A stretch of DNA of 50,514 nt from a virus: IMG/VR virus record IMGVR_UViG_3300012920_000060, positions 1 to 50,514 of that record; one strand, written 5' to 3'. Of the stretch, positions 7,492 through 45,244 are shown piece by piece. How positions within the stretch are numbered: the first letter of the stretch is position 1; each line of letters begins with the position of its first letter. The translations under genes and the position numbers were made by a program. Under the pieces are notes generated by a model. That model was not told where the DNA came from and ran no database searches. It saw nothing but the letters and a program-made list of their open reading frames with translations.

Positions 7492-8911
7492 TGAGTATGG
7501 TACAATAACGGAAGATGTAACTCCAGCTAAGGACTTACACGTGGTAATCATGGGCCTTGGAGAAGAGGAAGGTACTTTTGCAGAAATCATGCAAAAGCTA
7601 TGTAAGAAAAGAGGTATAAAAAATACTCTTATAAACATAGAAGAAGCATACATGGGTTCAAGTGATGTTGAGATAGGTTCGGCAAGAATACGTAACATTG
7701 ATGGAAAAGACAATGAAATCGATATCACTGTTTTAAATACTATTGTATTTGTTAGAGCAGGTGCTTTAAAATCATTGACATCTCAGGCCTTGGTATCTAC
7801 TCTACAAAATATTGGATTCTTTCTTATAAATGATTTAGAAACTATGCTGCTATGTGATAATAAAATGTCATCAGCTCTTACATTAGAGAGAAATAATATT
7901 CCTGTACCTAGGACATCAATAATCAATAATGTAAAATCAATCGAAGATGCACATAAAAAAATAGGTGGTAAATTTCCAGTAATTATTAAAACACTAAGAG
8001 GTACACAGGGTATTGGAGTTTCTAAAGTAAACGATATGAGCTCCTTAGTATCTGTATGTCAATCTTTATGGAAATTTAAAGCTGACTTACTGATACAAGA
8101 ATACTTTGAATTAAAATCAGATATAAGAACACTAGTTATAAACAATAGGATTGTTGGTTCAGCTGAAAGAAAAAAGAAAGATGATAAAGAATTTAGAAAT
8201 AATGTTCATCTTGGTGCAGATACTTTACCATACAATATGTCTGAAGAAGAAAAAGAATTGGTTATAAAGGCTGCTCGATGTACTGGAGCTTCATATGTTG
8301 GAGTTGACCACTGTAAAGTTGGAGATAATTATTATATACTAGAAGTGAATGGTAGTCCAGGTATTAGGTCTCATTTCTTAGGATATGATTTAGAAACTGG
8401 TAAATCAACTAAAAAAATTGATGATGCTGAAGTATTAGACCAAATATTATTATGGTTCAGCGATGACCATAACAGAAGACCTATGATGAGGCAAGAGGTT
8501 GGTTATGTAGAAAGTATTCAGCTCGATGGTATGGAAGATAATCTTATAAGAGCAAAATTCGATACCGGCAATTCAGCATCAGCAACAATGTTACATGTTG
8601 ATAAACTAGAAGTAAATGGTGATATTGCTAAATGGAAAAAGAATGGAGTAACTTTTGAAAGCGAGATAGTAGATATATCAGAACCTAGAAGAGGCCTTAA
8701 AGAATTTGATAAAAGACCGGTTATTGAGCATGGTATTACATTCAATAATAAAAAATACACAATGGAAATAGGATTAACTGAAAAAGATACAGCATCTGAA
8801 ATGCTAGTTAATCGAAAAGATATGACAAAATTTAGGGTTAGTGTACATCCAAACCGAATGTTTATGGTTAGTGACTATGCGGGTAAAGATGACAGTACAA
8901 CTAAAGACTGA
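7478..8911 (+). CDS. RimK-type ATP-grasp ligase fused to RimB-like retropepsin
   Basis: A two-domain protein. Residues about 20-315 form a RimK-like ATP-grasp ligase: FPVIIKTLRGTQGIGVSK (nucleotide loop), IQEYF...DIRTLV, a FRNNVHLGA segment, and YYILEVNGSPGIRSH with the metal ligands. Such enzymes add amino acids, often glutamate, to protein or peptide carboxylates. Residues about 345-475 resemble the ATP-dependent protease/RimB retropepsin family, with AKFDTGNSASATMLH carrying the DTG aspartate motif and a downstream KRPVIEHGITFNNKKY block. The ATG at 7478 is preferred over 7436, which lies deep inside gene 17. The N-terminus MQKFNEYGTITE resembles a capsid-targeting peptide. Substrate unknown. 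Confidence 0.78.
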   Translation: MQKFNEYGTITEDVTPAKDLHVVIMGLGEEEGTFAEIMQKLCKKRGIKNTLINIEEAYMGSSDVEIGSARIRNIDGKDNEIDITVLNTIVFVRAGALKSLTSQALVSTLQNIGFFLINDLETMLLCDNKMSSALTLERNNIPVPRTSIINNVKSIEDAHKKIGGKFPVIIKTLRGTQGIGVSKVNDMSSLVSVCQSLWKFKADLLIQEYFELKSDIRTLVINNRIVGSAERKKKDDKEFRNNVHLGADTLPYNMSEEEKELVIKAARCTGASYVGVDHCKVGDNYYILEVNGSPGIRSHFLGYDLETGKSTKKIDDAEVLDQILLWFSDDHNRRPMMRQEVGYVESIQLDGMEDNLIRAKFDTGNSASATMLHVDKLEVNGDIAKWKKNGVTFESEIVDISEPRRGLKEFDKRPVIEHGITFNNKKYTMEIGLTEKDTASEMLVNRKDMTKFRVSVHPNRMFMVSDYAGKDDSTTKD

Positions 8912-28907: not shown

Positions 28908-29603
28908 ATGATTATATCTGAAGAAACTTTAGAAGTTCTAAAGAACTTTGCAACAATTAATCCTAACATTGTATTTAAACCTGGATTTGAAATTAAGACT
29001 ATATCGGAAGCTAAAACTATTCTTGCATCGTCAAAGATAGTAGAAGATTTTCAAAAAGAGTTTGGAGTCTATGACTTAAACGAATTCTTATCAGTATATA
29101 ATCTTATTGAAACTCCTCAACTGGACTTTGAAGAAAAGGCAGTGGTTATTAAAAATAATGTTGCTGGAGCTAAGGTACCAATTCAACAGTCGGTTAGATA
29201 TTTTTTCTCCGACCCAGAAATACTTACAACTCCGCAAAAGGATATTCAAATGCCTAATGCAGAACTTGGCGTCAATATTGAAGAAGATGTTTTAAATCAA
29301 ATTCGTAGAGCCGCATCTGTACTAGGACACAATGAACTTTCAATCAAAGGTGATAATGGTGTTGTCACAGCATCAGTTGTAGATACTAAAGATGCTACAT
29401 CTAATCATTTTGAGATTGAGTTAGACAGAGATAATTCATGTAAGAATGAATTTAACTTTGTTGTTAGTATTCCTAACCTTAAATTACTACCAGGTGATTA
29501 CTTTGTAAGTATATCTTCTAAGCTAATCTCTAACTGGACTAATAGTAATTATCCGGTGGAATATTTCATTGCACTTGAGAAAAACTCAGTGTTCAATGTA
29601 TAA
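28908..29603 (+). CDS. gp45: Sliding clamp gp45
   Basis: 231 residues matching T4 gp45 (228), the trimeric processivity clamp that also activates late transcription. Family segments are LEVLKNFATINPNIVFKPG near the start, FGVYDLNEFLSVYNL, and the C-terminal LLPGDYFVSISSKLISNW with YPVEYFIALE. It heads a group with clamp loader genes 44 and 62 and regA, in the T4 order 45-44-62-regA-43. Confidence 0.95.
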   Translation: MIISEETLEVLKNFATINPNIVFKPGFEIKTISEAKTILASSKIVEDFQKEFGVYDLNEFLSVYNLIETPQLDFEEKAVVIKNNVAGAKVPIQQSVRYFFSDPEILTTPQKDIQMPNAELGVNIEEDVLNQIRRAASVLGHNELSIKGDNGVVTASVVDTKDATSNHFEIELDRDNSCKNEFNFVVSIPNLKLLPGDYFVSISSKLISNWTNSNYPVEYFIALEKNSVFNV

Positions 29604-32748: not shown

Positions 32749-35277
32749 ATGTTGAATTTTTATACTAATGTCTCAAGATATGGTAATATGATTCTTTTAC
32801 GTGGCTATGAAAATGGCAAGCGTATTGAAAAAAGAATCAAGTATGAACCTATTCTCTTTACTTCAACAAATCTCCCTACCAAATGGAAAGCATTGGATGG
32901 TACTCCTGTCGGTGTAGCAAATGCAGGGAAAAGATTTGAATCTATGCGTTCAGCAAATGAATATGTACAAGCAAACAAACATGTTGCAGGTAAAAAGCTT
33001 TATGGTAATACTAAGTATATACCTGCCTTTATAAATGATTACTATCCTGGTAAGATAGAGTTTGACAGAAATAAAATTAATGTTACTACTATTGATATCG
33101 AGGTTGCATCAGATGATGGTTTCCCAGAGCCTGATAAAGCTGACCATAAAATTATTTCTATTGCATTAAAGAACAGCATAAGTGATAGCTACTTTATATG
33201 GGGACTAGGTGATTATGATGTAGAGAAATCTATTATGAAATCTCATAGAGTTATATATCGTAAGTTCGATAGAGAAGACGACCTTCTTATTAATTTCGTT
33301 ACTCATTGGTCCCAGGCATCAAACTCACCAGATGTTGTCACAGGATGGAATACTAGGTTCTTTGATATTCCTTACCTTGTAAATCGTATTAACAGAATGC
33401 TAGGTGAGTCATATGTCAAAAGATTAAGCCCATGGGGTATGATTGAAAAACATGACATTACAAAAATGGGTAGAAGTCAACAAGCGTTTGAGCTCAAAGG
33501 TATTGCTCAATTGGATTACCTGGACTTATTTCAAAAGTTTGGTTATTCCTACGGTCCACAAGAATCATACAAGTTGGACCATATTGCAAGTGTTGTCTTA
33601 GGAGAAAAGAAACTATCTTACGAAGAGTATAGTAATCTTCATACCTTATACAAACATAATCATCAAAAGTTTATTGATTATAATATTAAAGATGTAGAGT
33701 TAGTTGATAGGATTGAGGATAAGCTTGGTCTTATTACCTTATGTATGACTATGGCATATCAAGGTGGTGTAAATTACAATGATACGTTTGGCACAACAAT
33801 GATATGGGATACGATTATATTCAGAAGATTGTTTGCAAACAATATTGTAGTTCCTTTCCAAGAAGATAAAACAAAAACATTCTATCCGGGTGGCTTTGTA
33901 AAAGAACCACATATAGGATTGCATGATAACATAGTTTCTTTTGATTTAAACTCTCTGTATCCTTCCATCATTATGCAATACAATATGTCACCAGAGACAA
34001 TTGCTAATGGAGATGTTACACAATTCAACATAGAAAACGTACTTAATAAATCAGAAAGACCAGACAAAAAAGATAAAGCTCTAGCAGCAAATGGACAATA
34101 TTTCAACATAAATAAACAAGGGATAGTTCCTTACATAGTCGATGAAATGTACAAAGACCGTGTTGAGATTAAGAAGAGTATGATATCGGCTCAAAAGGAA
34201 CTTCAGAAGGTAGATAAAAATGACAAACAAAAACTATACCAAATTGAACGGGATATTGCCATCAGAGAAAACCAACAAATGGCTATTAAGATTCTCCTTA
34301 ATTCTCTTTACGGTGCTCTTGGTAACAAGTATTTTCGTTTCTTCGACCAACGAATTGCCGAGGCCATTACACTCACTGGACAGCTTACAATACGATGGGC
34401 CGAATATGCGCTCAATCGATATCTTAATCGAGTTATGCGAACAGAGAAGTGGAAGGACTACGTCGTTGCCATTGACACAGACTCGCTGTATGTTAGCCTA
34501 GATGATATTATAAAACAATTCAATCCTGATAATCCAATAAACTTTATGGATAAGATTTGCAATGAAGCATTGGAAGCAGAGTTGGCAAAGTCATATGATG
34601 AACTATATGATATGCTAGGTGGTATTGATAATCGTATGGTTATGAAACGTGAAGCAATTGCTGATAGAGGATTATGGACAGCAAAGAAAAGATACATACT
34701 TAATGTCCATGATAATGAAGGTGTAAGATACAGAAAACCAAAGCTCAAGATTATGGGTATTGAAGCAATTAAGTCTTCAACTCCAGCTCCATGTAGAGAT
34801 GCGCTAAAACAAATATTTAAAGTTATCATGGAGAAAGATGAAAAGGAAGTCCAAGGTTCTATTGAACAATTTAAAAATTACTTTAAAACATTACCTCCTG
34901 ACGAGATAGCTTTTCCAAGAGGTGTATCCAAAGTTAAAGATTACCAAGATAGAAATACTGTCTATAAAAAAGGTACACCTATACATGTCAGAGGTTCTAT
35001 ATTACACAATAAACTAATTAATGATTTAGCTTTAAATAAAAAATACACACCAATCAATAACGGTGATAAGATTAAGTTTATGTATCTAAGGAAACCTAAT
35101 CCTATACACGAAAATGTTATTGCCTTTACTGATTACTTACCTGAGGAATTTGGTCTTAGTAAATATATTGACCATGAAACTCAATTTCAGAAAACTTTCC
35201 TAGACCCTATTGAACCAGTACTAGATGCTGTAGGTTGGTCATCTAAGGAAGTTGCTAGTTTGGAGGATTTCTTTTGA
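32749..35277 (+). CDS. gp43: DNA polymerase gp43 (family B)
   Basis: Replicative polymerase with proofreading exonuclease, 842 residues (T4: 898). Exo I is TTIDIEVAS (113-121), Exo II includes TGWNTRFFDIPYL, and Exo III has YNIKDVELVDRIE. Polymerase motif A is SFDLNSLYPSIIMQYN (397-412), motif B KILLNSLYGALGNKY, and motif C IDTDSLYVS. No intein or intron interrupts it. The C-terminus ends in a likely clamp-binding SLEDFF. Its stop overlaps the TTG of the UDG-like gene. Confidence 0.98.
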   Translation: MLNFYTNVSRYGNMILLRGYENGKRIEKRIKYEPILFTSTNLPTKWKALDGTPVGVANAGKRFESMRSANEYVQANKHVAGKKLYGNTKYIPAFINDYYPGKIEFDRNKINVTTIDIEVASDDGFPEPDKADHKIISIALKNSISDSYFIWGLGDYDVEKSIMKSHRVIYRKFDREDDLLINFVTHWSQASNSPDVVTGWNTRFFDIPYLVNRINRMLGESYVKRLSPWGMIEKHDITKMGRSQQAFELKGIAQLDYLDLFQKFGYSYGPQESYKLDHIASVVLGEKKLSYEEYSNLHTLYKHNHQKFIDYNIKDVELVDRIEDKLGLITLCMTMAYQGGVNYNDTFGTTMIWDTIIFRRLFANNIVVPFQEDKTKTFYPGGFVKEPHIGLHDNIVSFDLNSLYPSIIMQYNMSPETIANGDVTQFNIENVLNKSERPDKKDKALAANGQYFNINKQGIVPYIVDEMYKDRVEIKKSMISAQKELQKVDKNDKQKLYQIERDIAIRENQQMAIKILLNSLYGALGNKYFRFFDQRIAEAITLTGQLTIRWAEYALNRYLNRVMRTEKWKDYVVAIDTDSLYVSLDDIIKQFNPDNPINFMDKICNEALEAELAKSYDELYDMLGGIDNRMVMKREAIADRGLWTAKKRYILNVHDNEGVRYRKPKLKIMGIEAIKSSTPAPCRDALKQIFKVIMEKDEKEVQGSIEQFKNYFKTLPPDEIAFPRGVSKVKDYQDRNTVYKKGTPIHVRGSILHNKLINDLALNKKYTPINNGDKIKFMYLRKPNPIHENVIAFTDYLPEEFGLSKYIDHETQFQKTFLDPIEPVLDAVGWSSKEVASLEDFF

Positions 35278-35651
35278 TTAAAAAAAATCTTATAGTTATT
35301 GGTCATTCTCCAGGACCGGGAATAGTAAGTAATAGAAAAACATCCACTTTGAATAGAGTAAGAAAATGGATTAATGAAGATTATACTTATGAATGGAAAA
35401 ACTTGGTTAATTACCATGCACCTACTTTAAGAATGAGTGATGTAAGCTTAGATGAAAACTATGTTAAAACATTTGATTATGTTATTGCCCTAGGTAATAT
35501 GGCATCAAACTGGTTAACTAAAAGGAATATAAATCATCTAAAAGTTCCACACCCTAGTGGATTAAATAGAATGTGGAATAATCCACAAACGGAGATAGAT
35601 ACTATAGATAGTATAAAAAAATATTTACATACTGCAAAAAGTGTGGTATAA
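35274..35651 (+). CDS. Uracil-DNA-glycosylase-fold protein coupled to gene 43
   Basis: 125 residues starting at TTG, with GGAGG 7 nt upstream inside gene 43. NLIVIGHSPGPG (5-16) resembles the first UDG-superfamily motif, DYVIALGNMASNWL the central strand, and VPHPSGLNRMW (91-101) the H-P-S motif that grips the base or strand. It lacks the catalytic acidic residue of family 1 (motif A has no Asp after Gly) and is short (UDGs have about 200). It may excise or bind modified bases, or be a related phage protein. Coupling to the polymerase suggests a role at the fork. Confidence 0.5.
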   Translation: MIKKNLIVIGHSPGPGIVSNRKTSTLNRVRKWINEDYTYEWKNLVNYHAPTLRMSDVSLDENYVKTFDYVIALGNMASNWLTKRNINHLKVPHPSGLNRMWNNPQTEIDTIDSIKKYLHTAKSVV

Positions 35652-35672: not shown

Positions 35673-35960
35673 ATGGATTATAAATTAGTAAGGTTAAGCA
35701 ATGGAGAAGAAGTCATTGGTAGAGTTGAAGTAAACGAAGAAAACAACAACATTACAATTACAGATGGTCATGCTCTCTTTGCACCAGAACCTGGTAAGAT
35801 TGGATTTATTCCTTTCATGCCATATACTAAAGCAAAAGATGGAGTAACTATTGATATGAAATTTGTTATGTTTATAGTGGATCCTTTGGATTCTTTAGTA
35901 GACCAAGTAAGGTCAGTTAATTCTGGATTGGAAATACCTGATAGGAAAATAATGACATGA
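35673..35960 (+). CDS. Small LSm-like conserved protein (paralogue of 22717 gene)
   Basis: 95 residues from the ATG at 35673, which has GGAG 6 nt upstream; the earlier ATG at 35661 contains that site. YKLVRLSNGEEVIGRVEV and NNITITDGHAL have the same pattern as FKLINGDDIIGLVAD in the 22717 gene, and IGFIPFMPYTKA matches QFQPWFPFSD. Function unknown. It opens an operon with a MazG-fold enzyme and a PrimPol-like protein (ATGA overlap). Confidence 0.6.
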   Translation: MDYKLVRLSNGEEVIGRVEVNEENNNITITDGHALFAPEPGKIGFIPFMPYTKAKDGVTIDMKFVMFIVDPLDSLVDQVRSVNSGLEIPDRKIMT

Positions 35961-36358
35961 GCAAAGACTGGGTAAAAGACATTCATTTAATGCAAGGCAA
36001 ATATCAAACACGGCATTGGGTTGAAAATAATCCAGATGATTTACGAAGATTCCTTGAATTTAGAGTAGATTTTTTAAGAGAAGAATTAGAGGAAACCGAG
36101 TCAGCACTTATTAATATGGATGCTGAAGAAATAGTTGACGGTTTGATTGATTTATGTGTTGTAGCGATTGGTACACTAGATGCATTTGGTGTTGACCCAT
36201 ATAAAGCATGGGACGAGGTATTAAGAGCAAACATGGATAAACAGGTTGGTAAGAAACCATCAAGACCGAATCCACTTGGAGTTCCAGATTTAGTAAAACC
36301 AGATAATTGGGAGGCACCTAACCACACAGGTAATCATGGTAAGTTTAACGATATTTGA
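35957..36358 (+). CDS. MazG/HisE-fold nucleotide pyrophosphohydrolase
   Basis: 133 residues, all-alpha. FRVDFLREELEETESALINM, then DAEEIVDGLIDLCVVAIGTL with the E-x-x-E and D-x-x-D metal ligands, then DPYKAWDEVLRANMDK, is the phosphoribosyl-ATP pyrophosphohydrolase-like pattern. Such phage enzymes remove unwanted dNTPs. Near a dCMP hydroxymethylase, a dCTPase role like T4 gp56 is an attractive inference, since dCTP must be removed for modified cytosine to replace it. Overlaps its neighbours by 4 and 23 bp. Confidence 0.65.
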   Translation: MSKDWVKDIHLMQGKYQTRHWVENNPDDLRRFLEFRVDFLREELEETESALINMDAEEIVDGLIDLCVVAIGTLDAFGVDPYKAWDEVLRANMDKQVGKKPSRPNPLGVPDLVKPDNWEAPNHTGNHGKFNDI

Positions 36359-37253
36359 TAGTATATACGATAACAAAACTCATAAGAGAATGGATTATAA
36401 TGACTTCTCTGAGTTTGCAAATGTATTATTTAAGCTAGCAAAGTCTAATAAGTATCCTACAAAACACGATGCTCCTTTAATTAGTCCAGCAATATACAAA
36501 CCAAATACCACAAGAGCAAATGATAATGTGACAGGTTGGGGTTCTTGGGCTGCTTTAGATGTTGATGATTTCAAAGGAGACATAACAGATATAGAAAAGA
36601 AATACGAAAAGTATAGATATGTTTGTTATTCAACTGCATCATCTACTAAAGAATCTCCTAAGTTTAGGTTAGTATTTCCACTTAAAGAAATGGTACTTAA
36701 AAGTAATATAAAACACTTTTGGTTTGCTCTTAATAAAGAGATTGGAGATATAGCTGATGCTCAAACAAAAGATTTAAGTCGTATGTATTATGTACCAGCT
36801 TCATATAAGAATGCATTTAATTTTATATTTACACATGATGGTGAAGTAATGGACCCAGTTACTCTTATGCAAAACCATCCTTATGTTGAACCTAACCAAA
36901 CAATGTTTGATAGATTTCCAAAAGCAATACAAGAAGCTTTAGTACAAAGAAAGAAAGAACAGTTAAATAATACCAACTATAAATGGACATCATATAGAGA
37001 TTGCCCGTTTGTTAATAAAAATCAAGTTAATGAATATAAATCTATTACAGGAACCGGATGGTATGCAAAGATGTATCAGATTATGGTGTCAACTGCAGGT
37101 AATGCAATGTCCAGAGGTTATCCTATAACTTCAAAAGAAATAGAGTTTATATGTAGAGACCTAGATAATGATACCGGTAATTGGTATGCAAAAAGAGATA
37201 TCGGTAAAGAAGCTGAAAGAGCCATTGAATTTGTATTTAAAAATAATTTGTAA
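36336..37253 (+). CDS. Archaeo-eukaryotic primase (PrimPol)-like protein
   Basis: 305 residues. WGSWAALDVDDFKGD (68-82) gives the D-x-D pair, STASSTKESPKFRLVFPL (99-116) is the conserved phage/plasmid primase segment, and DLSRMYYVPASYKNAF (147-161) the third block. The C-terminal 110 residues may be a helical primase-linked domain. T4 uses a DnaG-type primase (gp61); none lies in this window. Whether this protein replaces or supplements it cannot be told. The ATG lies within the end of the MazG gene. Confidence 0.6.
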   Translation: MVSLTIFDSIYDNKTHKRMDYNDFSEFANVLFKLAKSNKYPTKHDAPLISPAIYKPNTTRANDNVTGWGSWAALDVDDFKGDITDIEKKYEKYRYVCYSTASSTKESPKFRLVFPLKEMVLKSNIKHFWFALNKEIGDIADAQTKDLSRMYYVPASYKNAFNFIFTHDGEVMDPVTLMQNHPYVEPNQTMFDRFPKAIQEALVQRKKEQLNNTNYKWTSYRDCPFVNKNQVNEYKSITGTGWYAKMYQIMVSTAGNAMSRGYPITSKEIEFICRDLDNDTGNWYAKRDIGKEAERAIEFVFKNNL

Positions 37254-37270
37254 AAAAAGACAATTAACTA

Positions 37271-37299
37271 TTTACATGTACCCTAAACTGTGGTATAAT
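37271..37299 (+). promoter_or_regulatory. Early promoter of the base-modification genes
   Basis: TTTACA (37271-37276), 17 bp beginning TGTACCC, TATAAT (37294-37299) after CTGTGG. GGAGGTGA follows before the TTG start at 37323. It probably drives the genes down to the promoter at 43880. Confidence 0.85.
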
Positions 37300-37322
37300 A
37301 GTATATTATTTGGAGGTGACCA

Positions 37323-37655
37323 TTGAAAGAATCATTAAGAGTCTTGCAAGAATGCGCAGAGCTACAGACTAAAAAGTCTCAAGACTATCAAAACAAACAA
37401 TCAAATGTAACACAGATGATGCATTACCGTAGAGGTGTTGATACTGTTCATGATATTATACATGGTAAAGTATTAAGAGCTCAATCATTACTAGAATCCC
37501 AAGGTGATCCAAACTTTGAATCCCTTGAAGATACTTACAAAGATTTAATTAATTATTGTAGTTTTGCAGTATCTTTACTGAGAGGTAAGATGGAGGGTCA
37601 AACACCAGACCGTGATATATTTAATAATAAGATAGATGTACCAGAACACGACTAA
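37323..37655 (+). CDS. Nucleotide modification-associated protein (Nmad1/DUF1599-like)
   Basis: 110 residues beginning at TTG with GGAGGTGA 4-6 nt upstream. ECAELQTKKSQDYQN, then GVDTVHDIIHGKVLRAQSLLE, then FESLEDTYKDLINYCSFAVSL, is the DUF1599 pattern, a family named for its association with phage base-modification operons. The next gene, overlapping by 20 bp, is a dCMP hydroxymethylase, consistent with that. It is thought to be an all-alpha nucleotide-binding protein; the reaction is not known. Confidence 0.65.
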   Translation: MKESLRVLQECAELQTKKSQDYQNKQSNVTQMMHYRRGVDTVHDIIHGKVLRAQSLLESQGDPNFESLEDTYKDLINYCSFAVSLLRGKMEGQTPDRDIFNNKIDVPEHD

Positions 37656-38319
37656 AGACATAGCTGAAATATTTGTCAATGCTCTTGAGAATAAAGAGTT
37701 TACAAATGATAGAACTGGCTCAAAGACAATAGAAATTATTGGTGCGTGTTTTGTTGCTGATAAGCCAGCAATATTTGGCACTCCTAATAAAGAATATATT
37801 GATGCTGAAATAGAATGGTACAATTCTATGTCAACTAATATTACTGACATATATCCTGAAGGAGATAAAGAACCTCCACAGGCTTGGCAATATACAGCAA
37901 ATATACACGGTGAAATAAATTCCAATTATGGTTATCTTATATTTAGTAAAAAGTATCATCAGCAATATAAACAAGTTATTAAAGAATTATGTGAAGTAAA
38001 TCCTGACTCTCGTAGAGCTTCAATGATATATCAAAGACCAAGTATTTGGAGTGAATATAAAGAAAATGGTAAAAATGATTTTATATGTACCAATGCAGTA
38101 ACATATTATATTAGAGATAATCAATTACATTGTGTAGTTCAAATGAGAAGTAATGATGTAATATTTGGTTATAGAAATGATTATGCTTGGCAAAAATATG
38201 TGCAAGAAAAATTACAAAATGATTTATACTATGAAGGTATGAAAGTAGAGTTAGGTGATATACATTGGCAGGTTCAAAACTTACATGTATATGAAAGACA
38301 TTTCGATTTAGTTAAATGA
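37636..38319 (+). CDS. gp42: dCMP hydroxymethylase (T4 gp42-like)
   Basis: Makes 5-hydroxymethyl-dCMP from dCMP and methylene-tetrahydrofolate. It is very like T4 gp42 as I recall it: SKTIEIIGACFVADKPAIFG, EINSNYGY, NPDSRRASMIYQRPS, DFICTNAVTYYIRD, MRSNDVIFGYRNDYAWQKYV and LHVYERHF. The catalytic Cys is C151 (T4 C148). D182 (T4 D179) stands where thymidylate synthases have Asn, marking cytosine rather than uracil as substrate. Length is 227 against 246 in T4. This predicts that phage DNA contains hydroxymethylcytosine or a derivative. Confidence 0.9.
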   Translation: MYQNTTKDIAEIFVNALENKEFTNDRTGSKTIEIIGACFVADKPAIFGTPNKEYIDAEIEWYNSMSTNITDIYPEGDKEPPQAWQYTANIHGEINSNYGYLIFSKKYHQQYKQVIKELCEVNPDSRRASMIYQRPSIWSEYKENGKNDFICTNAVTYYIRDNQLHCVVQMRSNDVIFGYRNDYAWQKYVQEKLQNDLYYEGMKVELGDIHWQVQNLHVYERHFDLVK

Positions 38320-38516
38320 TTAATGTATATAATGGAAAACAATACAGAATTTTTAAAGATAAAATATTATTTTTTCCCTATTATATTTTAGAAGATAGTA
38401 CTAAAGCCGTACAAAAACAAGGTGTATGGTATGGGATTAAAATTACTAATTATTATTTTAAAACTTTAAATTATGTAAAAAAACAAATGAGTGAAATAGA
38501 ACATGCAAACATCTAA
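38316..38516 (+). CDS. 66-aa protein of unknown function
   Basis: Joined by ATGA to the hydroxymethylase gene and overlapping the next gene by 14 bp. Aromatic-rich (FFPYYILEDS, VWYGIKITNYYF), with a short beta-like start (INVYNGKQYRIF) and a C-terminal helix. Coupling on both sides supports expression. No family recognised. Confidence 0.5.
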   Translation: MINVYNGKQYRIFKDKILFFPYYILEDSTKAVQKQGVWYGIKITNYYFKTLNYVKKQMSEIEHANI

Positions 38517-38853
38517 ACACATAGGCTACCCTATGCCTTCAGAAATGTTTAATGGAATAAAAAAAGAAGATATTGATGAAGTATTTGATAAGCACAAAAA
38601 TAATATGACACAAAGAGAAGAAGCTTTAGTAATTCTTATGGAAGAATGTGGAGAATTAATCCAAGCTTGCAGTAAAATGATAAGAAGTGATGGTGCTACT
38701 AAATATGAAAGGGAATTGCAAGATGAAGTTGGAGATGTTCTTACATTAATAGAACTGTTAAAAAATAGTGGTCTTGTTACTGATAAACAAATTGAAGATA
38801 GAATGAAAATTAAAAAAGAAAAATTAATGAAGTGGAGTTTATTGTACAAATGA
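38503..38853 (+). CDS. mazG: MazG-like NTP pyrophosphohydrolase
   Basis: 116 residues. EALVILMEECGELIQACSKMIR has the E-E-x-x-E ligands and ELQDEVGDVLTLIELL the E-x-x-D ligands of MazG-type enzymes; KIKKEKLMKW is the usual ending. It is more MazG-like than the paralogue at 35957. It may hydrolyse dCTP, dUTP or ppGpp; with a dCMP hydroxymethylase and dCMP deaminase on either side, pool cleansing is likely. The tRNA-Ala begins 2 bp after its stop. Confidence 0.75.
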   Translation: MQTSKHIGYPMPSEMFNGIKKEDIDEVFDKHKNNMTQREEALVILMEECGELIQACSKMIRSDGATKYERELQDEVGDVLTLIELLKNSGLVTDKQIEDRMKIKKEKLMKWSLLYK

Positions 38854-38855
38854 TT

Positions 38856-38931
38856 GGGGCTGTAGCTCAGTTGGGAGAGCGCTTGGTTTGCATCCAGGAG
38901 GTCGTAGGTTCGAACCCTATCAGCTCCACCA
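38856..38931 (+). tRNA. tRNA-Ala (anticodon UGC)
   Basis: A 76-nt cloverleaf: acceptor GGGGCTG with CAGCTCC (one G-T pair), D arm GCTC...GAGC, anticodon arm CTTGG-TTTGCAT-CCAGG with anticodon TGC, T arm GTAGG-TTCGAAC-CCTAT, and an encoded CCA. It is the only tRNA seen in the window and lies between mazG and the dCMP deaminase gene, in the same direction. GCA/GCT alanine codons are common in these genes. Confidence 0.97.
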
Positions 38932-38938
38932 TAATATT

Positions 38939-39382
38939 ATGATTGATAAATGGGACCAAAGATTTTTAGAGATAGCATCTACTGTAAGCAGGTGGTCAAA
39001 AGACCCTAGTAGAAAAATAGGTGCTGTTGCTGTAAGAGATAGAAAGATATTAGCAACAGGATATAATGGATTTCCTAAAGGTATTGAAGATTTAAAAGTT
39101 AGGTATGACAATAGAGAAGAGAAATATAAGTTTGTTGTACATGCTGAAATGAATTGCATATATAATGCAGCTGAAAATGGTATATCATTAAAAGATTCAA
39201 CCCTTTACATAGTCGGATTACCGGTATGTAGTGATTGTGCAAAAGGTATAATACAATCTGGTATAAGTAGAGTTGTAGCTCACTCAAGTGGCACACCTGA
39301 TAGATGGATAGAAGCTATAAAAAATACTAAAGAAATATTGCTTGAGGCGGGAGTAGATTATGAATTCACCGAAATTCACTAA
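38939..39382 (+). CDS. cd: dCMP deaminase
   Basis: 147 residues from the ATG at 38939; an earlier in-frame ATG lies inside the tRNA. Zinc ligands and catalytic Glu are in FVVHAEMNCIYNA (H68, E70) and LPVCSDCAKGIIQSGI (C97, C100). KDPSRKIGAVAV and GYNGFPKG are typical of phage and bacterial dCMP deaminases, which convert dCMP to dUMP for dTMP synthesis. With dCMP hydroxymethylase it would compete for dCMP, as in T4. Overlaps the next gene by 23 bp. Confidence 0.93.
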   Translation: MIDKWDQRFLEIASTVSRWSKDPSRKIGAVAVRDRKILATGYNGFPKGIEDLKVRYDNREEKYKFVVHAEMNCIYNAAENGISLKDSTLYIVGLPVCSDCAKGIIQSGISRVVAHSSGTPDRWIEAIKNTKEILLEAGVDYEFTEIH

Positions 39383-39659
39383 AGAAGAAATAGAAAATTC
39401 AAATAGGATTTTTAAAAGTGCTACACCAAAGTATGATATTACATGGTATGTGAAATGGGTATCATCAATTATAATTGTTGTAGCTATGAGTATGAGAGGA
39501 ATTGAAGGATTACATTTATATGACTTATCATTAAGTTTGGTTGGTGTATGTGGATGGTTATATGTTGGAATAATGTGGAAAGATAGAGCACTAGTAGGAT
39601 TAAATGCAATAGGATTGTTTTTCTTACTAAGAAACTTTATTGAAGCCGTAGTATTATGA
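39360..39659 (+). CDS. Small membrane protein, unknown function
   Basis: 99 residues with hydrophobic segments at about 34-48 (SSIIIVVAMSM), 54-72 (DLSLSLVGVCGWLYVGI) and 79-97. The phrase YVKWVSSI, then YDLSLSLVGVCGWLYVGIMW, then KDRALVGLNAIGL, is one I associate with widespread marine phage proteins of unknown role. Its stop overlaps the glycosyltransferase ATG (ATGA). Confidence 0.55.
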   Translation: MNSPKFTKEEIENSNRIFKSATPKYDITWYVKWVSSIIIVVAMSMRGIEGLHLYDLSLSLVGVCGWLYVGIMWKDRALVGLNAIGLFFLLRNFIEAVVL

Positions 39660-40903
39660 GAATAGGAATAGGTAAATTAGGTAAGTCAGTATTATTTAAT
39701 AGTAATAACTGGGGTGCTATAGGTGGAGATAACGAAGCACCTATTCTATTTGAAAATTTAATACATTTAAATCCAGAGCATGAGTTTGTTTTTATTGGTG
39801 TTACTGATTACGATAGACTAACTCCTGCTGAAAGACAAAGAATCAATTATCACGGTAATGTTATTAATCCATGGGAAGGATTCTCAGAATGGAAAAAACA
39901 AACATATAAATCTGGAGACAATAAATCTGGTGATAGACAAAGATATATGGAAGAACATATTATTCCTAATTATAAAGTTGATAAAGCAATATTCTTAATG
40001 GGAAATGCATCATCGTTAAATGTAAGAGGTCATGTTTACAAGATAAAAGAACCAGATAAATTAGCATCTCCATTAGATATGCATGCAAAGTATGCTGGTC
40101 CAGTAATACATTACCTAAACAAAACTGATGTAAATTGGATTATGATACTAAATGACCCTAGATTGTTTCCTGGAAATATGAAGGATTTATTTAACAGACC
40201 AAAAAAAGTATTATCACAGTTTAATGAAATGATAACTCATAAGAATCATTTATCTTACACTGACCATACTGTAAATGAACAGGTTATTGTTGGTCAGTAC
40301 GCAAACATGGAAACAATATTCTTAATAGGAAAGGAAAGAGGAAAGGCAATAGATGAAGCTCCTAGCTGTTTAGATGAATTCTTTGAGGATGCTCCTGAGA
40401 AAACAACTGAAAAAAATATTAAGTTTATGATTGTTTGTAATGAAGGTAGACCATCAAGATATAAAGATTTAAAAAAATATATTTTAGATAATGTTGATGA
40501 TGTAGACATATATGGAAAGTGGGACGATGAGATATTACAAAATGATGAAAGATTTAAAGGTCCAAAAAAGTTTAATGAATTACAAGCAATGCTACCCAAT
40601 GTAAAGTATACTTTTTGTATACCAATCAAAAAAGGTTGGTGTACAGCTAAGTTCTGGGAAATGGCACATTATGGCATAATACCATTCTTACATCCAACTT
40701 ATGATGAACAAAATAATTTAAATTGTCCACATATGTTAAGGATAAAAGATTCTAAAGATTTATTTGATAAAATAAATAAATTAGAAAATGATGAAGAATT
40801 ATATAATGAGTTAAGAACTCAATTAGATAAAATGTTAAAAGATGAGTATTATGATGGTACTTTTTTAAGTGATAGGATAATGAATGAAGTCGATAGTATT
40901 TGA
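39656..40903 (+). CDS. GT-B glycosyltransferase, candidate hydroxymethyl-dC glycosyltransferase (BGT-like)
   Basis: 415 residues. The C-terminal domain has DVDIYGKWDDEI, GPKKFNELQAML, then GWCTAKFWEMAHYGIIPF, RIKDSKDLFDKINKL and ELRTQLDKML. These follow in order the C-terminal half of T4 beta-glucosyltransferase (F-F-G, R-V-W-E-T-M, a surface D-E, then a final helix pair). The N-terminus (MRIGIGKLGKS) also suits GT-B. Placed after dCMP hydroxymethylase and directly before sugar-activating enzymes, it is a good candidate for glycosylating DNA. Similarity to BGT is by eye and distant; protein or lipid targets are possible. Overlaps both neighbours. Confidence 0.6.
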   Translation: MRIGIGKLGKSVLFNSNNWGAIGGDNEAPILFENLIHLNPEHEFVFIGVTDYDRLTPAERQRINYHGNVINPWEGFSEWKKQTYKSGDNKSGDRQRYMEEHIIPNYKVDKAIFLMGNASSLNVRGHVYKIKEPDKLASPLDMHAKYAGPVIHYLNKTDVNWIMILNDPRLFPGNMKDLFNRPKKVLSQFNEMITHKNHLSYTDHTVNEQVIVGQYANMETIFLIGKERGKAIDEAPSCLDEFFEDAPEKTTEKNIKFMIVCNEGRPSRYKDLKKYILDNVDDVDIYGKWDDEILQNDERFKGPKKFNELQAMLPNVKYTFCIPIKKGWCTAKFWEMAHYGIIPFLHPTYDEQNNLNCPHMLRIKDSKDLFDKINKLENDEELYNELRTQLDKMLKDEYYDGTFLSDRIMNEVDSI

Positions 40904-41243
40904 TTTAGATGATACGATTTGTTTTACAAATCACCACGCAAGAGATACTGAAAGTAAGTATGGTAAGGCCATGCCTAACGATAAAGTAATCAAAAGAATG
41001 CGTGTTTTAAAAGAACATGGATTTCATATAACTATATTAACAGCTAGAAGAATGCTAACACATAATGGTGATTTAGAAAAAATAATAGCTGATGTAGGAA
41101 AAACAACAGAAGATTGGCTAGAAAAGCATAAAGTTCCTTATGATGAATTAGTGTTCGGTAAACCATATTGCACACACTATTATGTAGATGATAAGGCTAT
41201 GGATTTAGACCGTTTTTATAATTGGATAGATAATGTCAAGTAA
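40884..41243 (+). CDS. HAD-superfamily phosphatase
   Basis: 119 residues. FDLDDTICFTNHHARD (6-21) is HAD motif I with nucleophile D7 and acid D9, TILTARR is motif II, and HYYVDDKAMDLDRF motif IV. No cap domain. It resembles small phosphatases of capsule-sugar operons. It overlaps the glycosyltransferase gene by 20 bp and the nucleotidyltransferase-kinase gene by 11 bp, so it probably acts on a sugar phosphate in the same pathway. Confidence 0.75.
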   Translation: MKSIVFDLDDTICFTNHHARDTESKYGKAMPNDKVIKRMRVLKEHGFHITILTARRMLTHNGDLEKIIADVGKTTEDWLEKHKVPYDELVFGKPYCTHYYVDDKAMDLDRFYNWIDNVK

Positions 41244-42711
41244 ATTTAATTTAGTAATACCAGCAGCAGGTGATGCAACAAGACTAAGACCTCTATCGTC
41301 CGGCACGTCGAAAGTTATGGTACGTGTAAATGGCAAACCTTGCCTTGATTATATCATAGAGGCAGTCAACGGCAGTGTTGATGAAATAATCATAGTGGAT
41401 GGAAAGTATTCTGACATAAGAGAATACTGTGCTGTCAGACATCCAAAGGTAAGGTTCGCCAATCAGCCATCTTTAGATGGACCAAGAGATGCAATATCAA
41501 TAGGAATGAACAACTTAAGTAATCCACTTAATCCAGTTGTTGTGTGGTTAGGTGATGCTATCATATTAGAAAAAGATATGCCTTTAGGTACAAACTTTTT
41601 ACTTACTAAAGAAGTTGACAATCAATCAGCCTGGTGTATGTGGGATGGTAATAATTATTATAATAAACCAGACAAACCTATACAAGGAGCCAATGCTTTA
41701 GTTGGATTATATTCTTTTGAAGAAGGATTAAGAGCTAAGCAAGCTTTTAATCAGACTCAGTCTTATGATATATCTGGAGCACTAGAACTTTATGGAAACT
41801 TTAAAGAAATAATTACCAGAGAATGGTATGATATAGGTGACTTACCTACATATTATAAAACATGTGCATCATTACTTAACAGAAAAGCAAGAGCATTCAA
41901 TAACTTAAAGTTTGATTCTGACTTAGGTACAATAACTAAAGTACCAGATTTCCATGATGAACATTCAAGAAAAACACTAGAACATGAAAAGTGGTGGTAT
42001 GAATCTTTAACACCAGAGCAGTCAATGTTTGCACCAAGAATATTATCTCACCCAACACAATTAATTATGTCTTATGAGAGTGGTACTTTACTAAGTGATT
42101 TAATGTTATATGAAAATATGCCCGACTCACATTGGGATTATATTATGGATAGAGTATTTAACATTAAGCTCAAGTATTTTAATTTTGCATGTGAAGATAG
42201 AGATGACCTTATAACATTTAGTAAATATTCAGAAGAAATGTGGATTGGTAAATCTGAAGATAGATTAGCAACCACAAATTATTTTAGCGATGAAAATGTA
42301 AAAAAGATAATCCAACTTGCTTATGATGTACAAAGACAAACATCACCAATTCAAGGTATGCACGGCGACTTACACTTTGCAAATATTTTATATAATCAAC
42401 AAACTGACCAGTTTAAATTCCTCGACCCTCGTGGCCAATATGGACCAAGAGGAGGAACATTCGGAGATGATATATATGATTGGTCTAAGTTAGCACATGA
42501 TTGTTATTATGGATATAATGCTATTGTTGCAGATGTACCAGAAAATGAATATGTAAAAGAATTGTTTATAAAGAAACTAAAGGAACATAATCTACCAGTA
42601 GAAACAATATTAAAAGGTGGATTGCTCTTGTTAGCAACATGTATTCCTTTACATTATGATGATAAGCAAAGACAAAAAAGAATGATTGAAAAAGTGGAGA
42701 ATAATTTATGA
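41233..42711 (+). CDS. Fused sugar nucleotidyltransferase and APH-fold kinase
   Basis: 492 residues. Residues 1-220 are a nucleotidyltransferase: VIPAAGDATRLRPLSSGTSK (signature), VVVWLGDAII, and EWYDIGDLPTYYK near the end. Residues about 240-480 are a phosphotransferase of the aminoglycoside/choline kinase fold: LIMSYESGTLLSDL (hinge), MHGDLHFANILY with catalytic D379 and N384, and KFLDPRGQYG with metal ligand D398. Kinase plus nucleotidyltransferase is the chemistry of salvage routes such as AmgK-MurU, making an NDP-sugar from a free sugar. It probably supplies the neighbouring glycosyltransferase. The sugar is unknown. Confidence 0.72.
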   Translation: MSSKFNLVIPAAGDATRLRPLSSGTSKVMVRVNGKPCLDYIIEAVNGSVDEIIIVDGKYSDIREYCAVRHPKVRFANQPSLDGPRDAISIGMNNLSNPLNPVVVWLGDAIILEKDMPLGTNFLLTKEVDNQSAWCMWDGNNYYNKPDKPIQGANALVGLYSFEEGLRAKQAFNQTQSYDISGALELYGNFKEIITREWYDIGDLPTYYKTCASLLNRKARAFNNLKFDSDLGTITKVPDFHDEHSRKTLEHEKWWYESLTPEQSMFAPRILSHPTQLIMSYESGTLLSDLMLYENMPDSHWDYIMDRVFNIKLKYFNFACEDRDDLITFSKYSEEMWIGKSEDRLATTNYFSDENVKKIIQLAYDVQRQTSPIQGMHGDLHFANILYNQQTDQFKFLDPRGQYGPRGGTFGDDIYDWSKLAHDCYYGYNAIVADVPENEYVKELFIKKLKEHNLPVETILKGGLLLLATCIPLHYDDKQRQKRMIEKVENNL

Positions 42712-43907
42712 TTAGTTATGGTTCTATAGTACCTTTGATAGGTGGAGAAAGTTTAGGTATACAAGAATCCCTAGGTGGGACAACACCTGAGTGGGTATTA
42801 TCTTATAAAGATTTTGAAGCAAACGATGCTCACTATATAAACTATCTACGTAAAAAAGGTTGGGAAGGTGATTATGTTTTCCTAGATGAAAATAAAAAAT
42901 ATAAAGCCAAAAAGGTAGATGTAGTAAATACAGTTTGTCCTTGTGCAGGTCTATCAACTCTAAGTGCAGGCTCTAGTGGTTCTAATCCTGTAAATAATTG
43001 GATGTATGAAACTGCAGAATATGTATTAGGAACATTAAAGCCTAAAGTATTTTGGGGAGAGAATGCACCAAGACTAGCTCAAAAAACTGGTATTCCTGTA
43101 GTTAAAAAACTTAGAGAAATAGGTAAAGAAAATGGATATTCATTATCTATTTACAAAACTAAATCTTTAGTACAAGGATTCTCACAAATCAGAGATAGAA
43201 CATTTTACTTTTTTTGGAAAGGAGATAAGGTACCATTATTCAATTATATTGGAAGACCTAATCAAAAGATTGAAGATTTAATAACATCAGTACCAAGGAA
43301 TCCTAAGGATCCTATGAATGTACTTTTGAATAAAGATAAGCCATCAGACTTTCCATTATACAAATATATTTTAGAAGTTATTCATGATGGTATATCTCAT
43401 AAAGAATTTATAGAACAACTAGATAAATCAATTAATGCATTTGAATACATTGAAAAGCACGATTCATTTGATAATCTATTACCATGGCTTAAGGAAAGAG
43501 AGCATACAAGATGTTATGGTATGATAGACAGAATGAACACTAAGCTAAAAGCCGGATTAAATGTAATGAGAAGAACAACTACATTTCCTAAAGATTACAT
43601 AGGTGCCTTTGTAGGTCATTTACCAAAATTACTTACCCACCCTGTGGAAGATAGATATCTTACAGTAAGAGAAGCTATGGAGATAATGTACTTGCCTAGA
43701 GATATGGATTTACTGAATGTATCACAGTATAATCATATATGTCAAAATGTTCCACTAAAGTCTGCCAAGGATATGATGGACCAAGTAAAAAAATATTTTG
43801 ATAACCAATTAGATTTAATTGATACACCTTACTTATTACAAGATAATAAAAGAAGAGTATATGAATATGAAAAAAATTGTTTACAACTTGATGAATTTAT
43901 GGTATAA
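42708..43907 (+). CDS. Divergent DNA cytosine-C5 methyltransferase-like protein
   Basis: 399 residues. Motif IV is VVNTVCPCAGLS with catalytic C79, motif VI WGENAPRL (117-123), motif VIII QIRDRTFYFF (160-169), and a late RYLTVREAMEIMYLP plus HICQNVPLKSAKDM stand for motifs IX-X. The usual F-A-G-x-G-G of motif I is replaced by PLIGGESLGIQE near residue 10. CPC-A-GLS in place of PPC-Q-GFS is also unusual. It may methylate DNA or act on cytosine in another way linked to the modification pathway. Overlaps the previous gene by 4 bp. Confidence 0.75.
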   Translation: MISYGSIVPLIGGESLGIQESLGGTTPEWVLSYKDFEANDAHYINYLRKKGWEGDYVFLDENKKYKAKKVDVVNTVCPCAGLSTLSAGSSGSNPVNNWMYETAEYVLGTLKPKVFWGENAPRLAQKTGIPVVKKLREIGKENGYSLSIYKTKSLVQGFSQIRDRTFYFFWKGDKVPLFNYIGRPNQKIEDLITSVPRNPKDPMNVLLNKDKPSDFPLYKYILEVIHDGISHKEFIEQLDKSINAFEYIEKHDSFDNLLPWLKEREHTRCYGMIDRMNTKLKAGLNVMRRTTTFPKDYIGAFVGHLPKLLTHPVEDRYLTVREAMEIMYLPRDMDLLNVSQYNHICQNVPLKSAKDMMDQVKKYFDNQLDLIDTPYLLQDNKRRVYEYEKNCLQLDEFMV

Positions 43908-43919: not shown

Positions 43920-44189
43920 ATGCCAAGTATAGATTTAAGACCAAAGAAAAGACATCCTAAGGACAGAAGGCCAGCTAAGCCTATGCCCTTTGATGTTGCT
44001 TTACGAAAGTTTAGAAAAGCCTGTGAAAGAGCAGGAATAGTACAAGAAGTACGTAAAAGAGAATTTTATGAAAAGCCAAACCAAAAGCGTAAGCGTAAAA
44101 AGGCTGAAGCTAGAGCAAGGCATCTTAAAAAACTAAGAATAGAAAAACAACAAAATTTACCACCGAGAGGTTATGGAGGAAAAAGATAA
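43920..44189 (+). CDS. rpsU: Ribosomal protein bS21, phage-encoded
   Basis: 89 residues. [20 protein letters not shown], then [20 protein letters not shown] and ARARHLKKL, is bS21 throughout, with basic extensions at both ends. bS21 sits at the 30S platform near the anti-Shine-Dalgarno end of 16S rRNA and assists initiation. Phage copies are known in marine T4-like phages and are thought to enter host ribosomes and shift translation to phage messages. It heads the uvsX-41 operon and has almost no leader, so it does not itself depend on a ribosome site. Confidence 0.96.
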
Positions 44190-45244
44190 TGTCAATAATG
44201 GATAAACTAAAAAAGAATAGCAAGATTAAAAGTACTGATGTACTAGCTGACTCTCCGCTGTTCGCAGAGAAGGATATGATTCCTACAGATGTACCAATGG
44301 TTAATGTAGCTCTATCTGGTGATATGGACGGAGGTCTATCATCTGGGCTAACAGTATTAGCTGGACCATCTAAACACTTTAAGACAAGTTTTGCATTACT
44401 TATGGGTGCAGCTTATCTTAATAAGTATGAAGATGCTGTAATGTTATTTTATGATTCAGAATTTGGTTCACCACAAAAGTATTTTGAGTCTTTTGGTATT
44501 GACACAAACAGAGTATTACATACACCAATCACAGATGTTGAACAATTAAAATTTGATTTAGTCGGTCAATTAGAAAATATTGAGAGAGGAGATAAGGTTG
44601 TCATAGTTATTGATTCTATAGGTAATTTAGCTTCTAAGAAAGAATTAGAAGATGCACTCAATGAAAAGTCAGTTGCTGATATGTCAAGAGCAAAAGCTTT
44701 AAAGGGACTGTTCCGAATGGTCACTCCTTATCTTACTATGAAGAACGTCCCTTTACTTGCTGTTAATCATACTTATCAAGAGATTGGATTATTTCCTAAA
44801 GCCATTGTGTCGGGTGGTACAGGTATTTATTACTCAGCCGATAATATATGGATTATTGGAAGAAGACAACAGAAAAAAGGTACTGATGTAACCGGTTATC
44901 ATTTTATTGTTAATGTAGAGAAATCAAGATTTGTAAAAGAAAAATCTAAAATCCCAGTTGAGGTTACTTGGGAAGGTGGTATTGCTACCTATGGTGGATT
45001 ACTTGATGTTGCTCTAGCCGGTGGATATGTAACCAAACCAACAATAGGATGGTATGCTAGAGTTGATAAAGATACTGGTGCAATTGAAGATGGTAAGGTA
45101 AGAGAAAAGGATACTAAGACTAAAAAGTTTTGGGAACCAATCTTTAATGAAACTGATTTTAAAGAGTTTGTAAAAACATACTATTCCATAGGACATAGAC
45201 CATTACTTGATATCGATTTAGATATTCCGATGGAAGGTGAGTAA
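44189..45244 (+). CDS. uvsX: Recombinase UvsX
   Basis: RecA-family strand-exchange protein, 351 residues (T4: 391). The P-loop is the phage-type GPSKHFKTS (59-67), followed by MLFYDSEFGSP, VVIVIDSIGNLASKKE (Walker B) and LLAVNHTYQEIGLFPK with the Q-containing switch. The start overlaps the bS21 stop by one base and its stop overlaps the next gene by one base (TAATG), giving a tight operon. Confidence 0.96.
   Translation: MSIMDKLKKNSKIKSTDVLADSPLFAEKDMIPTDVPMVNVALSGDMDGGLSSGLTVLAGPSKHFKTSFALLMGAAYLNKYEDAVMLFYDSEFGSPQKYFESFGIDTNRVLHTPITDVEQLKFDLVGQLENIERGDKVVIVIDSIGNLASKKELEDALNEKSVADMSRAKALKGLFRMVTPYLTMKNVPLLAVNHTYQEIGLFPKAIVSGGTGIYYSADNIWIIGRRQQKKGTDVTGYHFIVNVEKSRFVKEKSKIPVEVTWEGGIATYGGLLDVALAGGYVTKPTIGWYARVDKDTGAIEDGKVREKDTKTKKFWEPIFNETDFKEFVKTYYSIGHRPLLDIDLDIPMEGE

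Follow-up and report, generated by a model that had tools for sequence, protein, structure and literature searches.

In T4, gene 42 and b-gt occupy the slot between the genes of DNA polymerase gp43 and the recombinase UvsX, and in RB69 the arabinose module lies there; the region has been described as highly plastic (PMC6024577). RB69-type phages are reported to make 5-hydroxydeoxycytidine (5-hydroxy-dC), not 5-hydroxymethylcytosine (hmC), through a thymidylate synthase (TS) homologue, and then to arabinosylate it (PMC13390438). For Shewanella phage Thanatos, a deoxypentose-cytosine pathway with a TS homologue and a nucleotidyltransferase (NTase)/phosphotransferase fusion, TH1_060, has been described (PMC12838424). 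The DNA analysed here is IMG/VR record IMGVR_UViG_3300012920_000060, positions 1 to 50,514 (the window, 50.5 kb in all), from a marine T4-like myovirus. It reads mostly on the plus strand and carries one compact modification block (35957-43907) in the same slot, flanked by gp43 and UvsX.

The block probably encodes a T4-type cytosine hypermodification pathway that has its own sugar supply and is coupled to replication. Decoration of hmC with a phage-activated sugar is well supported. What sequences or models show directly are the families, their key residues, the fold, the peptides, which genes occur together and the exchange of modules. An initial annotation had described the block as a complete-looking route to glycosylated hmC DNA. 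All genes named in it were found at their places and are backed by profile matches (for the glycosyltransferase by Foldseek instead, as Pfam gave none), and its remark that nearly all of them overlap agrees with the 4-23 bp shared by neighbouring genes. The gene list had omitted a C5-methyltransferase-like (C5MT-like) partner gene at 42708-43907, clamp-type peptides and the swapping of modular cassettes, which are new here. Gene order and content of the block were found again in dozens of independent marine contigs, a recurrence far beyond chance.

Hydroxymethylase and nucleotide-pool genes

The nucleotide-level genes are the following.
35957-36358, plus strand: MazG-fold nucleotide pyrophosphohydrolase 1 (PF01503, 2e-10; phrog_671, 7e-22)
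37323-37655, plus strand: Nmad1/DUF1599 nucleotide-modification-associated protein (PF07659, 2.7e-6, above cut-off)
37636-38319, plus strand: predicted dCMP hydroxymethylase (PF00303, 1e-14; T4 enzyme 1b49, 5e-68)
38503-38853, plus strand: MazG-fold pyrophosphohydrolase 2 (PF03819, 8e-5, above cut-off; phrog_4856, 2e-20)
38939-39382, plus strand: dCMP deaminase, corrected start (PF00383, 1e-20; phrog_174, 7e-47)

The match of the 37636-38319 protein to 1b49 spans nearly its whole length. Sequence identity was 52.7% with T4 gp42 versus 32.0% with RB69 ORF048c. The catalytic Cys of DFICTN and the Asp of GYRND align in register with T4 Cys148 and Asp179, as had been claimed before. Asp179 is the cytosine-specific residue at the position where thymidylate synthases have Asn177, and the window protein has Asp there; 6l18, a D179N mutant chain of the T4 enzyme, departs from its motif at just this position. 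Judged by sequence, the TS homologue is of the T4 kind, and its similarity to T4 gp42 is close to the highest among the homologues compared here. The type matters because of the 5-hydroxy-dC reported for RB69-type phages. The enzyme is predicted to form 5-hydroxymethyl-dCMP (hm-dCMP), in support of the earlier proposal that cytosine is hydroxymethylated at the dCMP level.

MazG 1 is a possible dCTPase. The dCMP deaminase start was set to the first in-frame ATG (38939) because a tRNA-Ala(TGC) fills 38856-38931. A search for TET/JBP dioxygenases gave no match in the window or in six relatives, nor in the control, which was silent too.

Predicted glycosyltransferase

One gene of the block is predicted to encode a DNA glycosyltransferase.
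39656-40903, plus strand: predicted DNA glycosyltransferase with a BGT-like GT-B fold (AlphaFold model, Foldseek)

The protein has no Pfam match and a weak PHROG match to beta-glucosyltransferase (phrog_7922, E 1e-3), and a PDB sequence search with its alignment gave zero matches. An AlphaFold model was built from 20 orthologues (predicted local distance difference test, pLDDT, 79.9; predicted TM-score 0.81). In a Foldseek search of the PDB, T4 BGT entries ranked first (1j39, E 6.8e-8, probability 1.00; 1qkj) and BshA and other GT-B enzymes below them, so that the structure prediction bore out the earlier assignment to a BGT-like GT-B transferase. The invariant D167-P-R and W334-E335 resemble D100-I-R and W271-E272 of BGT, which contain its catalytic Asp100 and UDP-binding Glu272, a resemblance of motifs and not a three-dimensional superposition of residues. 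A direct sequence link to BGT, RB69 ORF003c or RB69 ORF050c was sought by profile comparison, which gave no significant similarity. The model supports the prediction of a DNA-directed BGT-like transferase.

Clamp-type peptides

In T4, gp43 ends in SLDFLFG and gp55 in SLDFLYEAND. The corresponding tails in the window are VASLEDFF (gp43), LQLDEFMV (C5MT-like protein) and KLELFMKP (late sigma factor); in sequence, the gp43 tail resembles that of T4 gp43. The glycosyltransferase carries such a peptide internally.
40370-40384, plus strand: clamp-type peptide LDEFF (amino acids 239-243) in the context SCLDEFF, within a disordered loop (234-250, pLDDT below 50)

LDEFF is kept within this variable loop in nearly all orthologues, the exception being the L023/L034 group. 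C-terminal motifs were counted in 1359 open reading frames (ORFs) from the loci of relatives, using families with at least 10 members. The motif was present in 183 of 192 proteins of six families (polymerase, C5MT-like and four decoration families: AGT-like, TAGT-like, 5-hydroxymethyldeoxyuridine (5-hmdU)-kinase-like and an unnamed family of 314 amino acids) versus 6 of 1167 others; it was not seen in the nucleotide-level and sugar-level enzymes of these loci. The pattern was set after inspection of the first tails, so that these contrasts describe the data and do not amount to a test fixed in advance. Shuffling of tails across families was a weak test, as the pool consists largely of the tagged families; the contrast given above and an internal background of 0.27% were used instead.

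The tagged proteins would be clients of the gp45 sliding clamp, whose gene lies at 28908-29603 of the window. Clamp coupling of an hmC transferase has a precedent, since T4 AGT binds gp45 in pull-downs (PMC13216743). The peptide sorts DNA-acting enzymes from nucleotide- and sugar-acting ones by sequence alone, and suggests that modification happens at the fork.

C5-methyltransferase-like protein

The last gene of the block encodes a tagged partner of the hydroxymethylase.
42708-43907, plus strand: C5-METHYLTRANSFERASE-like protein with altered S-adenosylmethionine (SAM) motifs (PF00145, 3e-12; C-terminus LQLDEFMV)

The model (pLDDT 87.8) has the C5-methyltransferase fold. Motifs were counted in 90 members, with about 85-90 aligned per position. 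Catalytic motifs IV, VI and VIII are kept, with Cys79, Glu118-Asn119 and Q160xR162xR164 invariant. The residues of motifs I, II and X hold SAM in canonical C5-methyltransferases. In motif I, FxGxG is changed to [VI]PLIG, with V or I at F18 and L at G20 of M.HhaI in all aligned members; likewise, E40 (motif II) is S or T and G303-N304 (motif X) is C-Q throughout. The protein seems to have lost the usual cofactor site.

The family is present in more than 600 viral stretches, and the hydroxymethylase accompanies it in 40 of 40 distinct loci, counting those in which 7.5 kb or more of sequence precedes the gene. Outside the clade, homologues occur in three unrelated phage lineages, Pseudoalteromonas phage XG4, cyanophage S-TIM5 and Bacillus phage G, each with an Asp-type TS homologue. 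XG4, a cultured phage, encodes the HAD phosphatase, the NTase-kinase and the glycosyltransferase as well; a search of viral contigs for the XG4-type C5MT gave no match. The S-TIM5 protein annotated as ThyA (L047, complement of 6769-7605) has Asp at the Asn177 position and is probably dCMP-specific. Phage G (L048, L134) also encodes a normal Asn-type TS homologue. Its Asp-type homologue lies at most about 15 kb from the genes of the C5MT-like gp301, alpha-glucosyltransferase gp306, nucleotidyltransferase gp309 and HAD protein gp310.

Quite possibly, the protein is a solitary methyltransferase of the ordinary SAM-dependent kind, guarding residual unmodified cytosines. The fold and every catalytic motif are retained, T4 likewise has an additional Dam methyltransferase, and the SAM pocket may have been rebuilt. 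This explanation has to accommodate the replacement without exception of Phe and Gly in motif I, Glu in motif II and Gly-Asn in motif X, a target-recognition region that is not hypervariable, and the lack of a free C5 for methylation in hmC. More tentatively, the family may have been repurposed to accompany dCMP hydroxymethylases in general, irrespective of the kind of decoration, keeping the covalent Cys chemistry, giving up the usual SAM use and acting on hmC in DNA at the replication clamp. As a hydroxymethylase partner with an altered cofactor site, the protein may act on hmC itself; removal, exchange or substitution of the hydroxymethyl group would be candidate reactions of such a repurposed enzyme, which could represent new cytosine chemistry.

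Exchange of decoration cassettes among relatives

In the 40 distinct loci the core is constant, and the content varies between the deaminase and the C5MT-like gene. In some loci the slot holds the BGT-like glycosyltransferase with either of two activation cassettes, and in others AGT (PF11440) and/or TAGT (PF20691), which may or may not be accompanied by cassettes. A third variant pairs an inositol-1-phosphate-synthase-like protein and a 5-hmdU-DNA-kinase-like helical domain protein. The last variant is joined in L072:5150-10004, L084 and L087 by a clamp-tagged protein of 330 amino acids, and this set is a possible inositol-type cytosine modification. The HAD phosphatase and the NTase-kinase occur alongside BGT-like or AGT/TAGT transferases. 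The decoration cassette is exchanged between phages and the core stays. As AGT and TAGT are known DNA-hmC transferases, their presence in this slot is the strongest comparative argument for predicting that the BGT-like protein acts on DNA. The prediction extends cytosine hypermodification to a large marine T4-like clade, in which a single locus combines an unchanging hmC core and interchangeable decoration cassettes and offers a natural library of modified bases.

Sugar activation and candidates for the sugar

Two genes were assigned to sugar activation.
40884-41243, plus strand: HAD phosphatase (phrog_1238, 2e-19; RB69 ORF051c homologue)
41233-42711, plus strand: sugar-phosphate nucleotidyltransferase/APH-fold kinase fusion (PF00483, PF12804, APH motif)

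The N-terminal part of the fusion is an NTP transferase domain with PDB matches to LicC and GalU-type NTases. The C-terminal part is an APH-fold kinase with a PDB match to ribulosamine kinase and an invariant HGDxHxxN...DPR. Comparison by hhalign with RB69 ORF053c and ORF052c gave probabilities of 96.6 and 93.7, and the HAD protein shares 30% identity with ORF051c (E 6e-8, single comparison). By these comparisons, both proteins are distantly related to those of the RB69 arabinose module. In relatives, two layouts were found, HAD with the NTase-APH fusion, or a HAD-APH fusion with a TagD-like cytidylyltransferase; the alternative fusions suggest that phosphatase, kinase and nucleotidyltransferase belong to one pathway. 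The NDP-heptose pathways (GmhB/HddC/HldE) serve as template for its logic. By analogy, a sugar n-phosphate is likely converted to the sugar 1-phosphate and on to a nucleoside diphosphate (NDP)-sugar, the predicted HAD enzyme stripping off a phosphate during activation. A search for bacterial homologues of the NTase-kinase, made for sugar context, gave a single match, on a 28-kb contig in a Flavobacteriaceae genome; the contig equals in length a viral contig already found and is probably phage DNA binned into a bacterial genome. The NTase-kinase/HAD trio has links to pathways for which, in RB69-type phages, no precursor is known as yet.

Because the phage carries the activation genes, its donor may be other than host UDP-glucose, and in this respect the earlier claim of a self-made NDP-sugar is supported. 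Arabinose is unlikely. The HAD phosphatase, NTase and kinase all have homologues in the RB69 module, which lies in the same slot, and could make UDP-arabinose for placement on hmC rather than on 5-hydroxy-dC. The homology is distant, however, the glycosyltransferase matches neither RB69 ORF003c nor ORF050c, and a search for the SIS-type isomerase (PF01380), in which RB69 was matched, found none in the window (a fragment), six relatives, XG4 or Enterococcus phage 9183. Glucose or another common hexose, with the NTase-kinase merely raising the host supply of nucleotide sugar, appears equally doubtful. BGT is the nearest fold and the NTase domain resembles the GalU and LicC families, but UDP-glucose would need no kinase plus HAD phosphatase, and the cassette is exchanged whole, with different nucleotidyltransferases, epimerases or inositol-phosphate synthase. 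A role of the glycosyltransferase and the NDP-sugar genes in host surface polysaccharide or in the glycosylation of proteins, instead of DNA, is very improbable: NTase, kinase and HAD families are known from capsule pathways too, but the transferase has a clamp-type peptide and BGT as its best fold match, AGT/TAGT substitute for it in the same slot, and linkage to the hydroxymethylase is constant.

Proposed pathway

For the T4-type pathway with its own sugar supply, the following order of steps is proposed. The MazG proteins would deplete dCTP, yielding dCMP, which the hydroxymethylase would turn into hm-dCMP; excess dCMP would be converted to dUMP by the deaminase. Kinases encoded outside the window would lift hm-dCMP to the triphosphate, and the polymerase would insert it. 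In parallel, APH kinase, HAD phosphatase and nucleotidyltransferase would make an NDP-sugar from a host sugar phosphate. The BGT-like transferase, kept at the fork via its gp45-type clamp peptide, would then move the sugar onto hmC in DNA, and the clamp-tagged C5MT-like protein would act on the same cytosines.

Several points weigh against this pathway. The earlier view of a complete-looking route stands for hydroxymethylation, glycosyltransferase and sugar activation genes and fails at one step, as the window has no hm-dCMP kinase (T4 gp1); in two relatives, a weak T4 gp1 homologue is encoded at another place in the genome. Neither a source of the sugar nor an isomerase was found. The TM-scores of the transferase against T4 BGT are only about 0.5, and the BGT match is therefore fold-level evidence; the similarity to BGT by hhalign is not significant alone. 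The clamp-type peptide is not obvious in T4 AGT, and in pull-downs no binding of T4 BGT to gp45 was seen (PMC13216743). The pathway is throughout a prediction from sequence and models; this applies to each reaction, to the sugar, to binding of the clamp and to the sequence of events.

Neighbouring genes

The block is bordered or interspersed by the following features.
32749-35277, plus strand: DNA polymerase gp43, upstream border (C-terminus VASLEDFF; sequence, tail alignment)
36336-37253: primase-like protein, kept in relatives and outside the modification chemistry (phrog_9765, 2e-48)
38856-38931, plus strand: tRNA-Ala(TGC), between MazG 2 and dCMP deaminase, not in the pathway (ARAGORN)
44189-45244, plus strand: UvsX recombinase, downstream border (phrog_97, 2e-89)

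At the block edge, 35274-35651 encodes a small protein that resembles the uracil-DNA-glycosylase superfamily (PF03167, E 1e-3, below cut-off); in several relatives, similar ORFs lie near the glycosyltransferase or the NTase-kinase. Among the structural genes, 7436-8911 encodes a RimK-like ATP-grasp protein whose sequence includes a putative zinc-protease domain.

Comparison with known systems

With T4 (gp42, gp56, cd, b-gt, a-gt) the window shares the key residues of the dCMP hydroxymethylase, the dCMP deaminase, a BGT-fold transferase, the gp43-uvsX slot and the clamp-type tail on gp43. Unlike T4, it has sugar activation genes, a clamp-type peptide in the glycosyltransferase, an extra C5MT-like protein, and MazG proteins with no identified gp56.

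The RB69/Mosigvirus module (ORF048c-055c) has homologous HAD, NTase and APH kinase genes in the same genomic slot. Identity of the two pathways was rejected, as the window is without the SIS isomerase, its glycosyltransferase is unrelated in sequence, and its TS homologue is of the T4 hydroxymethylase type and not of the ORF048c type. Within the RB69 module, ORF050c (L045:4493-5662) is annotated as a peptidase; it looks U32/RlhA-type, and we take it to be a candidate for 5-hydroxycytosine chemistry.

By description only, Thanatos is similar in its TS homologue plus NTase/phosphotransferase fusion, and differs in its UDP-xylose pyrophosphorylase TH1_063, of which no window counterpart was identified. 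Enterococcus phages 9183 and Planchet have the HAD, the NTase-kinase and a full-length glycosyltransferase (29% identity) beside an Asp-type TS homologue; they are of another phage type, without a C5MT-like gene beside the cassette and without the clamp-type peptide in the glycosyltransferase. With M.HhaI and M.HaeIII, the C5MT-like protein shares the fold, the catalytic Cys, Glu-Asn and QxRxR, and it differs from them in SAM motifs I, II and X, in its clamp-type tail and in its linkage to hmC synthesis.

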